NCBI RefSeq assembly: GCF_011602485.2
Contig: NZ_CP050022.2
Span: 4,298,001 to 4,362,000, forward strand
Length of the DNA: 64,000 nucleotides
From: Bradyrhizobium sp. 1(2017)
GTDB taxonomy: Bacteria > Pseudomonadota > Alphaproteobacteria > Rhizobiales > Xanthobacteraceae
Direction of reading: 5' to 3'
Shown here piece by piece: positions 15,468-18,517 of this stretch. The position numbers and the translations under genes are program-made. The notes under the pieces were generated by a model that saw only the letters and a program-made list of their open reading frames with translations, ran no database searches and was not told where the DNA came from. Numbering within the stretch: position 1 is the stretch's first letter; each line of letters starts with the position of its first letter.

Positions 15468-16067
15468 ATGAAGGCAGCACGACGACACACCTGGACGCTC
15501 TTCGCCGCCGCCCTGTCGACATTGCTGGCCGCAGCGCCGGCGCAGGCGGTCGTCTCGGCCGGAAGCACACCCACCGCGCTTCACAGCGAGACAGATGGCG
15601 AAGCTGATCGCCAGGCAATCAGCCGCGAGATCGAGCGCTTCCGCAGCTCGTCAATCTCGATCAGCCAGGCCATGGCCATTGCCGAAGCCCGCCATGCCGG
15701 CGCCACCACAGCGGATGTGAGTTTCGACGGAGGCTCGGGCGTCCCGGTCTACCGCGTGAAGACCCTGCACAACGACCGGATCTGGCGCCACACCATCAAC
15801 GCGTCGACCGGCGAGCTCGTCGGCGGGGAAGCCGCCCTTCCCCTCGCCGAGCTCGACCACGACGATCGCAGCAATCTCGCAGCGCTCGGTGCGATCAGGC
15901 ACCGCCTTGCCGACGCCGTGCGCGTCGCCGAACGCGCGGCCGCGGGCAAGGCCATCAGCGGCGGGCTGGTGCGCGAACGTGGCCGGCTCAATTTCGCGAT
16001 TGTCGTGATCAGCGGCGACGACCTCAAGGAGGTCATCCTGGAGCCGCCGGGCGCACGAGCCAAATAG
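15468..16067 (+). CDS. exported PepSY domain-containing protein
   Basis: A 199-residue protein with a signal peptide (MKAARRHTWTLFAAALSTLL, cleavage after AQA) and two PepSY-like stretches: SISQAMAIAEARHAGATTAD with VYRVKTLHNDRIWRHTINAS, and a second, weaker one with AERAAAGKAISGG and NFAIVVISGDDLKEVIL. PepSY domains are small periplasmic modules that inhibit proteases or act as accessory modules in redox proteins. The candidate TetR operator/promoter at 15268-15299 lies 170 bp upstream, which would link the gene to the patatin-TetR unit. Confidence 0.8.
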   Translation: MKAARRHTWTLFAAALSTLLAAAPAQAVVSAGSTPTALHSETDGEADRQAISREIERFRSSSISISQAMAIAEARHAGATTADVSFDGGSGVPVYRVKTLHNDRIWRHTINASTGELVGGEAALPLAELDHDDRSNLAALGAIRHRLADAVRVAERAAAGKAISGGLVRERGRLNFAIVVISGDDLKEVILEPPGARAK

Positions 16068-16075
16068 CTGGCTCG

Positions 16076-16095
16076 GCCCCGGCATCGACCGGGGC
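16076..16095 (+). terminator. hairpin after the PepSY gene
   Basis: GCCCCGG and CCGGGGC arms around a 6-base loop, 9 bp after the PepSY stop codon, followed by GAAAAG rather than a T run. It probably separates this gene from the asd leader promoter immediately downstream. Confidence 0.45.
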
Positions 16096-16104
16096 GAAAA
16101 GCCA

Positions 16105-16133
16105 TTGACGGAGGCAAGACTCTCCCGCATAAG
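16105..16133 (+). promoter_or_regulatory. sigma-70-type promoter of the asd leader
   Basis: TTGACG at 16105-16110, a 17-bp spacer, and CATAAG at 16128-16133 (4 of 6 with TATAAT). The expected transcription start is around 16140-16142, at or next to the A of the leader-peptide ATG, which predicts a leaderless mRNA. Confidence 0.65.
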
Positions 16134-16141
16134 TCGCCGCC

Positions 16142-16213
16142 ATGTTCACGACCACCAAACGCACGACCAAAACCACCACGGCCCCAGGGGCCCGGGGAGG
16201 CGTGCGCGCGTAG
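16142..16213 (+). CDS. threonine-rich leader peptide upstream of asd
   Basis: A 23-codon frame from ATG 16142 to TAG 16211. It begins MFTTTKRTTKTTT and so has eight Thr codons among residues 3-13 (a mix of ACG and ACC); the rest is Ala/Gly/Arg. It is followed by a rho-independent terminator 31 bp after its stop, then asd. This is the layout of amino-acid attenuator leaders such as thrL or trpL. Aspartate semialdehyde, the Asd product, is a precursor of threonine, so threonine sensing makes biochemical sense. The promoter placement suggests translation starts at the very 5' end of the RNA. The frame is too short for ordinary gene finders. Expression is not shown by sequence alone. Confidence 0.75.
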   Translation: MFTTTKRTTKTTTAPGARGGVRA

Positions 16214-16243
16214 GTCGTCGACTTAAACGCATCAGCTCTACCG

Positions 16244-16275
16244 AAGCCCCGCCCTCGATGGTCCGGGGCTTTTTT
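16244..16275 (+). terminator. attenuator terminator upstream of asd
   Basis: AAGCCCCG (16244-16251) and CGGGGCTT (16264-16271) form an 8-bp stem with a 12-base loop, with six T at 16270-16275. The 5' arm can alternatively pair with the GC-rich end of the leader frame: CCCCG 16247-16251 with CGGGG 16193-16197, and CCCT 16252-16255 with AGGG 16186-16189. This 9-bp antiterminator has a 3-base bulge. Confidence 0.8.
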
Positions 16276-16307
16276 GTTGTCTAATTCTCAATTCAATGGA
16301 GGACAAA

Positions 16308-17333
16308 GTGAGTAACGATCCCGTCGTCGCGATTGTCGGCGTCACCGGTGCAGTGGGCGCCGAATTCATCGCCACCATGGACAAGCGCGGCTTTCGCGTC
16401 GGTAAGCTGAAGGCGCTGGCGAGCGCCCGCTCGGCCGGCAAGACGGTGTCGTTCCGCGGACAGGACGTCGTCATCGAGGAATTGACCGAGCGCGCCTTCG
16501 AGGGCGTCGACATCGCGCTGTTCTCGGCCGGCGGCAGCATCTCGAAGAAGTTCGCGCCTGTCGCGGTCAAGGCCGGTGCCGTCGTGGTCGACAATTCCTC
16601 GGCCTTTCGCATGGACCCGAACGTGCCGCTGGTGATCCCCGAGATCAATGCGAGCCGCATCCGGGATCACAAGGGCATCATCGCCAACCCGAACTGCGCC
16701 GCGATCACCGCGCTGGTGCCGCTGTGGCCGATCCACCAGAAGAACCGCATCAAGCGCGTGATCATCTCGACCTATCAGGCGGCTTCCGGCGCCGGCGCCG
16801 CCGCAATGGAGGAGCTCGTCGAATCCACCCGCGCCAATCTCAACGGGCAGGTCTATACGCCCAAGGTGATGCCGCACCCCTACGCCTTCAACCTCTTCAA
16901 CCACAACACCGCCATCGACCCCGACACCGGCTACAACGACGAAGAGACCAAGGTCATCAAGGAGACCCGCAAGATCTTCGAGGACGAGAAGATCGCCGTC
17001 GGCGTCACCTGCGTACGCGTGCCGGTGCTGCGCGCCCATTGCGAGGCCATCACCTTCGAATGCGAGAAGCCGATCAGCGAGGACCAGGTCCGCACCATCA
17101 TGGCGCAGGCGCCCGGCGTGAAGATGGTCGACGACCGCGCCAAGAACTACTTCCCGATGCCGATCGACGCCTCGGGCCAGGACGACGTCCTGGTCGGCCG
17201 CATCCGCAAGGACCTCAGCGACCCCTCAGGCCATTCGATCTCGATGTTCGTGGCGGCGGATCAGTTGCTCAAGGGCGCAGCGCTCAACGCCGTGCAGATC
17301 GCCGAGCTTTTGCCGCAACGGGTGATGGCGTAG
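16308..17333 (+). CDS. asd: aspartate-semialdehyde dehydrogenase
   Basis: A 341-residue NADPH-dependent enzyme that reduces aspartyl phosphate to aspartate semialdehyde, the branch point to lysine/DAP, threonine, methionine and isoleucine. Motifs are VAIVGVTGAVGAEF (Rossmann loop), VVDNSSAFRMD, ANPNCAAITALVPL with the catalytic cysteine, and RVPVLRAHCEAITFE with the active-site histidine. I prefer the GTG at 16308, because GGAGG lies 5 bases before it; the ATG at 16296 overlaps that ribosome site. Transcription is probably controlled by the threonine leader/attenuator just upstream. Confidence 0.95.
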   Translation: MSNDPVVAIVGVTGAVGAEFIATMDKRGFRVGKLKALASARSAGKTVSFRGQDVVIEELTERAFEGVDIALFSAGGSISKKFAPVAVKAGAVVVDNSSAFRMDPNVPLVIPEINASRIRDHKGIIANPNCAAITALVPLWPIHQKNRIKRVIISTYQAASGAGAAAMEELVESTRANLNGQVYTPKVMPHPYAFNLFNHNTAIDPDTGYNDEETKVIKETRKIFEDEKIAVGVTCVRVPVLRAHCEAITFECEKPISEDQVRTIMAQAPGVKMVDDRAKNYFPMPIDASGQDDVLVGRIRKDLSDPSGHSISMFVAADQLLKGAALNAVQIAELLPQRVMA

Positions 17334-17343
17334 CAGGTGATGC

Positions 17344-17436
17344 GTAGGGTGGATTAGCCGAAGGCGTAATCCACCTCTTTGCTGTGCACTCGAACAGAGA
17401 AGTGGTGGGTTACGCCTTACGGCTAACCCACCCTAC
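17344..17436. repeat. inverted intergenic repeat (GTAGGGTGG family)
   Basis: A 32-base arm starting GTAGGGTGGATTAGCCG and its nearly perfect inverse ending CGGCTAACCCACCCTAC, separated by about 28 bp. It lies between the converging asd and queA genes and may act as a bidirectional transcription end. Related elements occur at 34862-34977. Confidence 0.8.
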
Positions 17437-17446
17437 GGCGCCAGTG

Positions 17447-18517
17447 TCAGTCGCGCCGAAACAGCAAGCACGCATCGCCATACGAATAGAACCTGTAGCC
17501 TTGCGCGATCGCATGCGCATAGGCCTGCTTCATCGTCTCGAGCCCCGAGAAGGCCGAGACCAGCATGAACAGCGTCGACTTCGGCAGGTGAAAATTCGTC
17601 ATCAGGACATCCACGGCGCGGAAGCGATAGCCGGGGGTGATGAAGATCGACGTCTCTGCCGCGAACGGCTGGATCGTGCCGTCTTCGCTCACTGCGCTTT
17701 CCAGCAACCGCAATGACGTGGTGCCGACCGCGAGGATGCGGCCGCCGCTCTTCCGCGCCGTGTTGAGGCGCTCCGCTGTCTCGGCCGAGATGGTGCCCCA
17801 CTCCGCATGCATCCTGTGGCCCTCGGTGTCGTCGACCTTCACCGGCAGGAAGGTCCCTGCCCCGACATGCAGCGTGACGCGGTTGATGCCAACGCCGCGC
17901 GCGCGCAGCGCCTGCTCCAGTGCCGGGGTGAAATGCAGACCGGCCGTCGGCGCTGCGACCGCGCCTTCGTTGGCCGCGAACATGGTCTGGTAGTCGGTGA
18001 GATCCTGATCGTCGGGCGTGCGCTTGGAGGCGATATAGGGCGGCAGCGGTGGACTGCCGAGATCGGCGATGGCCTGGTCCAGCGTGGGGCCGTGGAACGA
18101 GAACGAGAGCGTCACCTCGCCTTCGCTGCCCTTGGCCTCGACATCGGCGTCGAGATGGCCGAGCAGGCAGACCCTGCCCTCGTTGCCGAAACGGATGCGG
18201 TCGCCGGCCGTGAGCTTTTTCGCCGGCTTCACCAGCGCCTGCCAGCGCGAACCGTCGAGGCGCTTGATCAGCGTCGCTTCGATCTTCGGCTCGGTCTCGC
18301 GGCCGATGCGGCGGCCCTTCAATTGCGCCGCGATCACCTTGGTGTCGTTGACGACGAGCTGGTCGCCCGGCCTCAGCCATTGCGGCAGGTCGGAAACGAC
18401 CTGATCGCGCAGCCCGCCGTTCTCGACGACCAGCATCTTCGCGGAGTCGCGGGGGCTCGCCGGGCGCAACGCGATGCACTCGGCAGGCAGATCGAAATCG
18501 AAGAGGTCGGTGCGCAT
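17447..18517 (-). CDS. queA: S-adenosylmethionine:tRNA ribosyltransferase-isomerase
   Basis: A 356-residue QueA, which transfers and isomerises the ribosyl part of SAM onto preQ1-34 in tRNA to give epoxyqueuosine. The family N-terminus ([20 protein letters not shown]) is followed by [17 protein letters not shown], then [26 protein letters not shown] and [11 protein letters not shown], and the C-terminal [20 protein letters not shown] with [10 protein letters not shown]. All are standard. Its presence shows that this strain completes queuosine itself rather than only salvaging it. It is the last gene of a minus-strand run behind coaD and the cyclophilins. Confidence 0.95.

Follow-up and report, generated by a model that had tools for sequence, protein, structure and literature searches.

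The window analysed here is a 64-kb stretch of a Bradyrhizobium genome, and it carries on its forward strand a second copy of the gene for aspartate-semialdehyde dehydrogenase, asd2 (16308..17333), which opens with a GTG start codon at 16308-16310 and has an in-frame ATG at 16296 as an alternative. Its product scores 411 bits against the NCBIfam model TIGR01296 (asd_B; cut-off 324), and its residues 7-333 align to the solved Asd 2yv3, the NPNC stretch included. Downstream, an inverted repeat, GTAGGGTGGATTAGCCG...CGGCTAACCCACCCTAC, lies at 17340-17440, between asd2 and a convergent gene on the minus strand (17447-18517) that we take to be queA-like. Upstream of asd2, and on the same strand, are a predicted promoter, a short reading frame crowded with threonine codons and a hairpin followed by a run of T.

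The short frame extends from an ATG at 16142 to a TAG at 16211-16213 (16142..16213, 23 codons) and would encode the peptide MFTTTKRTTKTTTAPGARGGVRA, in which residues 3, 4, 5, 8, 9, 11, 12 and 13 are threonine. These eight codons (3-5, 8-9 and 11-13) form a block at 16148..16180 that is interrupted by the lysine codon AAA at codons 6 and 10. Among the 660 frames of 8-60 codons on both strands of the window, the leader reaches 8 threonine codons in 11 and the next best frame 5. The chance control consisted of 30 dinucleotide shuffles of the window, in which the maximum was 4 in 16 shuffles, 5 in 13 and 6 in a single one. A preliminary description of this DNA had pointed to the 23-codon frame and its eight threonines in residues 3-13, and rightly so: the frame exceeds all 30 shuffles and is far outside chance. 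Richness in codons for the product is one of the marks of amino acid leader-peptide attenuators, and here threonine accounts for 8 codons of 23.

Conservation was followed in 82 close loci, which comprise the best 80 of 573 stretches encoding a relative, the window itself and one more genome; 79 of these best 80 named loci are titled Bradyrhizobium, Bradyrhizobiaceae or uncultured Bradyrhizobium, and one is titled Frankia. The candidate attenuator is present in all 82. The leader ATG is invariant in a 76-row alignment, and each of 75 distinct leaders keeps its stop codon (TAG in 73, TAA in 2). Three of them depart from the length of 23 codons, each in whole-codon steps (to 22 or 24), as is expected of a constrained reading frame, and the number of threonine codons ranges from 5 to 9 over the 75 distinct leaders, with exactly 8 in 41 of them.

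The sigma-70-like promoter predicted at 16105..16133, which had escaped the preliminary description, consists of TTGACG (16105-16110), a 17-nt spacer and CATAAG (16128-16133), and only 8 nt separate the latter from the leader ATG. A simple promoter scan of the window made no call at this site. The arrangement TTGAC-N17-CATAAG followed by 7-8 nt and the ATG recurs in 82/82 loci, and in none of the 82 does AGGA, GGAG or GAGG occur within the 15 nt upstream of that ATG. The natural reading is that the transcript would have its 5' end on, or close beside, the ATG of the leader, and because the promoter spacing is conserved and no Shine-Dalgarno-like motif precedes the frame, the leader is probably leaderless.

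The hairpin, AAGCCCCG...CGGGGCUUUUUU (16244..16275), is a predicted intrinsic terminator with an 8-bp stem (16244-16251 with 16264-16271) and a T run at 16270-16275, two T of which fall within the stem; an 8-bp terminator with six T, followed by asd at 16308, is also what the preliminary description had reported from the sequence. Taken alone it is not unusual by chance: the region 15500-16800 yields one terminator, and its shuffled versions 0.9 +/- 1.1. GGGGC and at least five T are found in 82/82 close loci, six T throughout the 76-row alignment and likewise in L085, L199 and L200, so that a predicted intrinsic terminator with a U run stands 5' of the gene in the window and in the 82 close loci. 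Any transcript would stop at a stem and T run of this kind, and terminator-like sites are not rare; one might therefore regard it as the plain terminator of the upstream gene, which ends at 16067, with an incidental frame and with the asd2 promoter lying further downstream. We consider this highly improbable in view of the joint conservation of the frame, the threonine codons, the promoter spacing and the competing helices described below. Between the terminator and asd, 14 of the 80 loci (L025, L027, L028, L032 and others) have a repeat-like insert with GATCCGGAAAAG, and the spacer between attenuator and asd therefore tolerates insertion.

Folding of the leader RNA yields two further helices that would compete with the terminator. 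Strand 1, which overlies the threonine codons (16144..16168), can pair with a segment around the stop codon (16199..16222), and strand 2, the 5' arm of the antiterminator (16187..16206; GGGGC.CGGGGAG..GUGCG), can pair with strand 3, its 3' arm (16228..16250; CGCAU..CUCU.CCG..GCCCC), which overlaps the 5' arm of the terminator, or helix 3:4. The 9-bp antiterminator proposed in the preliminary description can indeed form (-15.1 kcal/mol), but the overlapping, longer pairing of 16187-16206 with 16228-16250 is the stronger of the two (-23.6 kcal/mol). The CGGGG (16193-16197) of the earlier proposal is changed, at codon 18, to TCGGG in 13 of the 72 distinct 23-codon leaders, and the GGGGC:GCCCC core of the longer pairing can form in 75/75 distinct leaders. 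Covariation is nearly absent within Bradyrhizobium, with changes on both sides at 2 pairs of helix 1:2 and at none in 2:3 or 3:4. As the sequences of this genus are too fixed to decide whether compensatory changes occur, the helices were tested across families, where the sequences differ strongly.

Outside Bradyrhizobium, 35 asd2-like loci were examined, and in 24 of them, spread over 13 families, a Thr/Lys leader precedes a GC hairpin that usually has the form GCCCCGCC..GGGGC. L202, L205, L208 and L211 do not reach 4 Thr in 11 codons and were included on visual inspection of their Thr/Lys cluster and hairpin; the remaining 11 loci (L086, L201, L203, L206, L214, L215, L222, L223, L225, L226 and L228, the last with its sequence cut) have no leader. 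Permutations served to compare the pairing of each arm with the partner from its own species and with those from other species. This cognate test used the window and 18 of the 24 outside loci (n=19; the near copies L210, L217, L218, L219, L221 and L229 were left out) or a subset with one locus per family (n=13). In the subset, the arms of helix 2:3 pair with their own partners at -21.99 kcal/mol as compared to -17.96 +/- 0.78 kcal/mol for permuted ones (0/50000 permutations), and the variable parts of 2:3 alone, when anchored, gave 3/50000. Helix 1:2 gave 10/20000, and 2/20000 in a repeat, and helix 3:4 gave 10/20000, again with n=13. When the variable part of 2:3 was first tested, unanchored, the outcome was null (5480/20000), and the anchoring of both arms came after that result, the anchor pattern in the frame being selected on the frame's own sequence; the unanchored test that included the invariant arm was already positive (0/20000, n=19). 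Controls with reversed partners were null for the variable part of 2:3 (3288/20000) and for 1:2 (8140/20000), as were those that combined strand 3 with the 5' portion of the frame (18502/20000) and strand 2 with a stretch downstream of the terminator (4277/20000). Within the window's own family, where the test of 1:2 had four sequences only, it was also null (4965/20000). The signal for 2:3 is an average, in that only 7 of 19 arms find their strongest partner in their own species and the window's strand 2 pairs more strongly with strand 3 of fourteen other species than with its own. The three mutually exclusive helices, 1:2, 2:3 and 3:4, thus covary over 13 families, which supports ribosome-mediated attenuation of the classical kind. 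The layout that the preliminary description had recognized as classical stands: the reading frame with its threonine codons and stop is conserved, as are the terminator and the helices that compete with it, and the covariation across families comes near to the check that the description had proposed.

It appears, with a probability of about 0.8, that a ribosome-mediated transcription attenuator controls asd2 according to the supply of threonine. Transcription would begin at or beside the leader ATG. With charged tRNA-Thr plentiful, a ribosome translating the leader would reach the stop at 16211 and cover strand 2, and the 3:4 terminator would form; with no ribosome loaded, helix 1:2 would sequester strand 2 and the terminator would form again. 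Under threonine shortage, the ribosome would halt within the threonine block, covering strand 1 and leaving strand 2 to pair with strand 3 (16187-16206 with 16228-16250), which would take up the 5' arm of the terminator and allow asd2 to be transcribed. The attenuation model of the preliminary description is supported in this form, although it needs the additions of the 1:2 helix over the threonine codons, a start that is probably leaderless and the second asd as the target. In folding predictions for RNA made only as far as the 5' arm of the terminator, this arm pairs with the frame at a probability of 0.81 when codon 8 is occupied by a ribosome and of 0.00 when there is none. For the full-length RNA of the window at equilibrium the terminator is favoured either way (0.99 with a ribosome at codon 8, 1.00 without), and antitermination must therefore be kinetic; for L015 and L202, the terminator fails to close at equilibrium too when the ribosome stalls in mid-leader (0.09 and 0.00). 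A ribosome at the first threonine codon gives an arm:frame pairing of 0.01 in the window, which counts against a stall that early, and a stall at codon 13 would, by the fold, hide part of strand 2. The folding result for a ribosome at the stop is true by construction.

It is possible, if doubtful, that the attenuator is bivalent, so that a shortage of either threonine or lysine, both end products of the aspartate pathway, would stall the ribosome. Both lysine codons of the leader (16157-16159 and 16169-16171) are AAA in 72/72 distinct 23-codon leaders, even though asd2 itself uses AAA 0 times and AAG 20 times, and the leaders of other families mix lysine with threonine. The window's leader, however, has only 2 lysine codons as compared to 8 for threonine, and AAA may merely keep the threonine block unstructured. 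A role that would add to attenuation instead of replacing it is action in trans of the terminated RNA (~134 nt) and its peptide, in the manner reported for Sinorhizobium rnTrpL/peTrpL, whose leaderless frame ending in an attenuator, in the passages of PMC10117765 and PMC7298713 that deal with it, is similar in layout to the locus. Codons 16, 17 and 19-21 are identical in 72/72 distinct 23-codon leaders, which speaks for such a role, but helices 1:2 and 2:3 already explain these fixed 3' codons, and we regard trans action as unlikely.

Beyond the genus, the hairpin can be followed by few T. This holds for 10 of 22 leaders examined (at most 4 T in 8), none of them from Bradyrhizobium, and such relatives still keep the leader and the helices. 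Many non-Bradyrhizobium relatives (L202, L204, L207, L209, L212, L220 and others) can, by eye, form a hairpin of the type GUCUC..GGAGAC near the asd2 Shine-Dalgarno; in L216, UCCUUCC with GGAAGGA takes its place, likewise by eye. One could suppose from the few T and from this hairpin, which many of the T-poor relatives can form, that the leader works via Rho or via asd translation and not via an intrinsic terminator. We think this quite improbable, since the T run is present in the window and the 82 close loci and since the T count and Shine-Dalgarno pairing vary without relation to each other (Spearman 0.07, p 0.77, in 21 of the 22 loci, L113 having been dropped as no start was found). A trade-off between U run and Shine-Dalgarno pairing, the same figures show, is unsupported. 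Intrinsic termination, with attenuation by threonine supply, remains the preferred reading for Bradyrhizobium.

Within the genus, a covariance model of the leader (R1) finds it in 186 of 195 genomes, and asd2 is found in 183 of 195 (E <= 1e-150). Scored as presence per genome and not as adjacency, the leader occurs in all 183 genomes that bear asd2; asd2 is missing from every one of the 9 genomes that lack the leader and from three more (G695, G734 and G770), which have a leader match and no asd2 match at E <= 1e-150. The source genome has one R1 match, and several others in the genus have 2-4. In L234 (G775:C151) there is a further, altered leader copy, with its terminator stem and T run shortened, then an asd-like start; a long ORF nearby resembles a transposase.

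The source genome (7.86 Mb, one contig) has two asd genes, the ordinary one being 46% identical to asd2. Neither its ordinary asd nor its homoserine dehydrogenase gene has anything of this kind in front, no Thr-rich frame having been found 5' of the former and no Thr leader before the latter, and the leader stands before the second, genus-typical asd and not the ordinary one. In a survey of 80 genomes of the family, close asd2 relatives (at least 83% identity) occur in four, the source genome included, all of which also carry the ordinary asd; one more genome has a 52% copy, most others have the ordinary asd only and four gave no match. In the class, asd2 relatives are patchy (18/240 genomes at E <= 1e-90; 28/385 at E <= 1e-105 in an overlapping sample).

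Outside the family, ordinary asd is itself often preceded by a short frame with at least 4 Thr in 11 codons (53/85 loci, against 3/85 on the reverse strand), and inside the family it seldom is (3/27, reverse strand 2/27). A filter for Thr and Lys together retains 53/112 of the ordinary-asd loci, in 27 of 48 families. In 19 of 22 displayed ordinary-asd loci, a simple scan of the interval from the leader stop to the gene detected no hairpin followed by a T run, and no structure emerged from a consensus fold of the ordinary-asd leader alignment. By eye, segments of the types CUCUCCC, GGGGAGAG and GGGAGAG precede the start in ordinary-asd leaders (L114-L198, e.g., L115, L128 and L132) from many Hyphomicrobiales families. 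We suggest tentatively, and at somewhat less than even odds, that the Thr/Lys leader is an old and widespread control of asd in the Alphaproteobacteria that acts on two paralogues and whose output stage has been exchanged between lineages. It would be an intrinsic terminator for asd2 in Bradyrhizobium and, for ordinary asd in many other Hyphomicrobiales families, a set of helices that lie close to the start of the gene, lack a U run and may act on translation.

The leader most likely lets the cell make the asd2 enzyme only when threonine is short, in Bradyrhizobium and in some far relatives. It would represent a regulatory signal, in a major nitrogen-fixing genus, for a branch-point enzyme on the way to lysine, methionine, threonine, isoleucine and a cell-wall precursor, and it hints at a reason for the retention of a second asd in the genus, with one copy free of the leader and the other apparently linked to the need for threonine. 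The element, with its helices covarying over 13 families, offers a ready system for the study of how attenuators evolve and of whether their output stage can be swapped, and a leader peptide that is probably leaderless bears on how attenuation may work without a Shine-Dalgarno sequence.

Among known systems, the E. coli thr operon attenuator (the Rfam thr leader, which we take to be RF00506) has a leader peptide with threonine codons and a terminator that competes with an antiterminator, with thrABC downstream. The asd2 leader is like it in its short threonine-codon peptide, its terminator and antiterminator and the gene of the threonine pathway that follows, and unlike it in that its target is asd and not thrABC, in that it is probably leaderless and in that the window's peptide is without isoleucine codons. 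In the window every Rfam family stays below its gathering score, and within 16000-16400 a search up to E 10 returned four weak matches (best E 0.15, far under gathering scores), none of them the thr leader. Vitreschak et al. reportedly treated, in 2004, leader-peptide attenuation of amino acid biosynthetic operons in proteobacteria, and the asd2 leader would, on a comparison by title only, fall within the same theme.

Like the authors of the preliminary description, who knew of no threonine attenuator on asd in rhizobia, we found none described in the open-licence literature. Term searches of the main texts of PMC4842269, PMC5082802 and PMC2965389 gave no such leader, and the first of these, on start sites in B. 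japonicum, does not mention asd in its main text. The nearest approach is the suggestion of a Thr/Lys leader peptide in Sinorhizobium, where, in the passages of PMC10117765 concerned, the sORF SEP5, with six threonine and three lysine codons, belongs to the 5'-UTR of a gene called 'aspartate dehydrogenase', is translated according to Ribo-seq and Western blot, is termed 'possibly a leader peptide' and is said to be 'conserved only in Sinorhizobium'. By our own reading this gene is asd, and SEP5 would probably stand upstream of the ordinary copy. SEP5 resembles the Bradyrhizobium leader in its threonine and lysine codons, and the description of SEP5 in those passages is without terminator or antiterminator. 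The trpL/rnTrpL of Sinorhizobium, as portrayed in the relevant parts of PMC7298713 and PMC10117765, is a leaderless leader peptide with an attenuated biosynthetic gene; the asd2 leader resembles it in that it is probably leaderless, belongs to the Rhizobiales and precedes a biosynthetic gene, and differs from it in being directed to threonine and asd instead of tryptophan and trpE(G). Set beside these systems, the element upstream of asd2 is real and conserved and is best read as an attenuator, and what is new about it is asd as its target, together with its notable spread.
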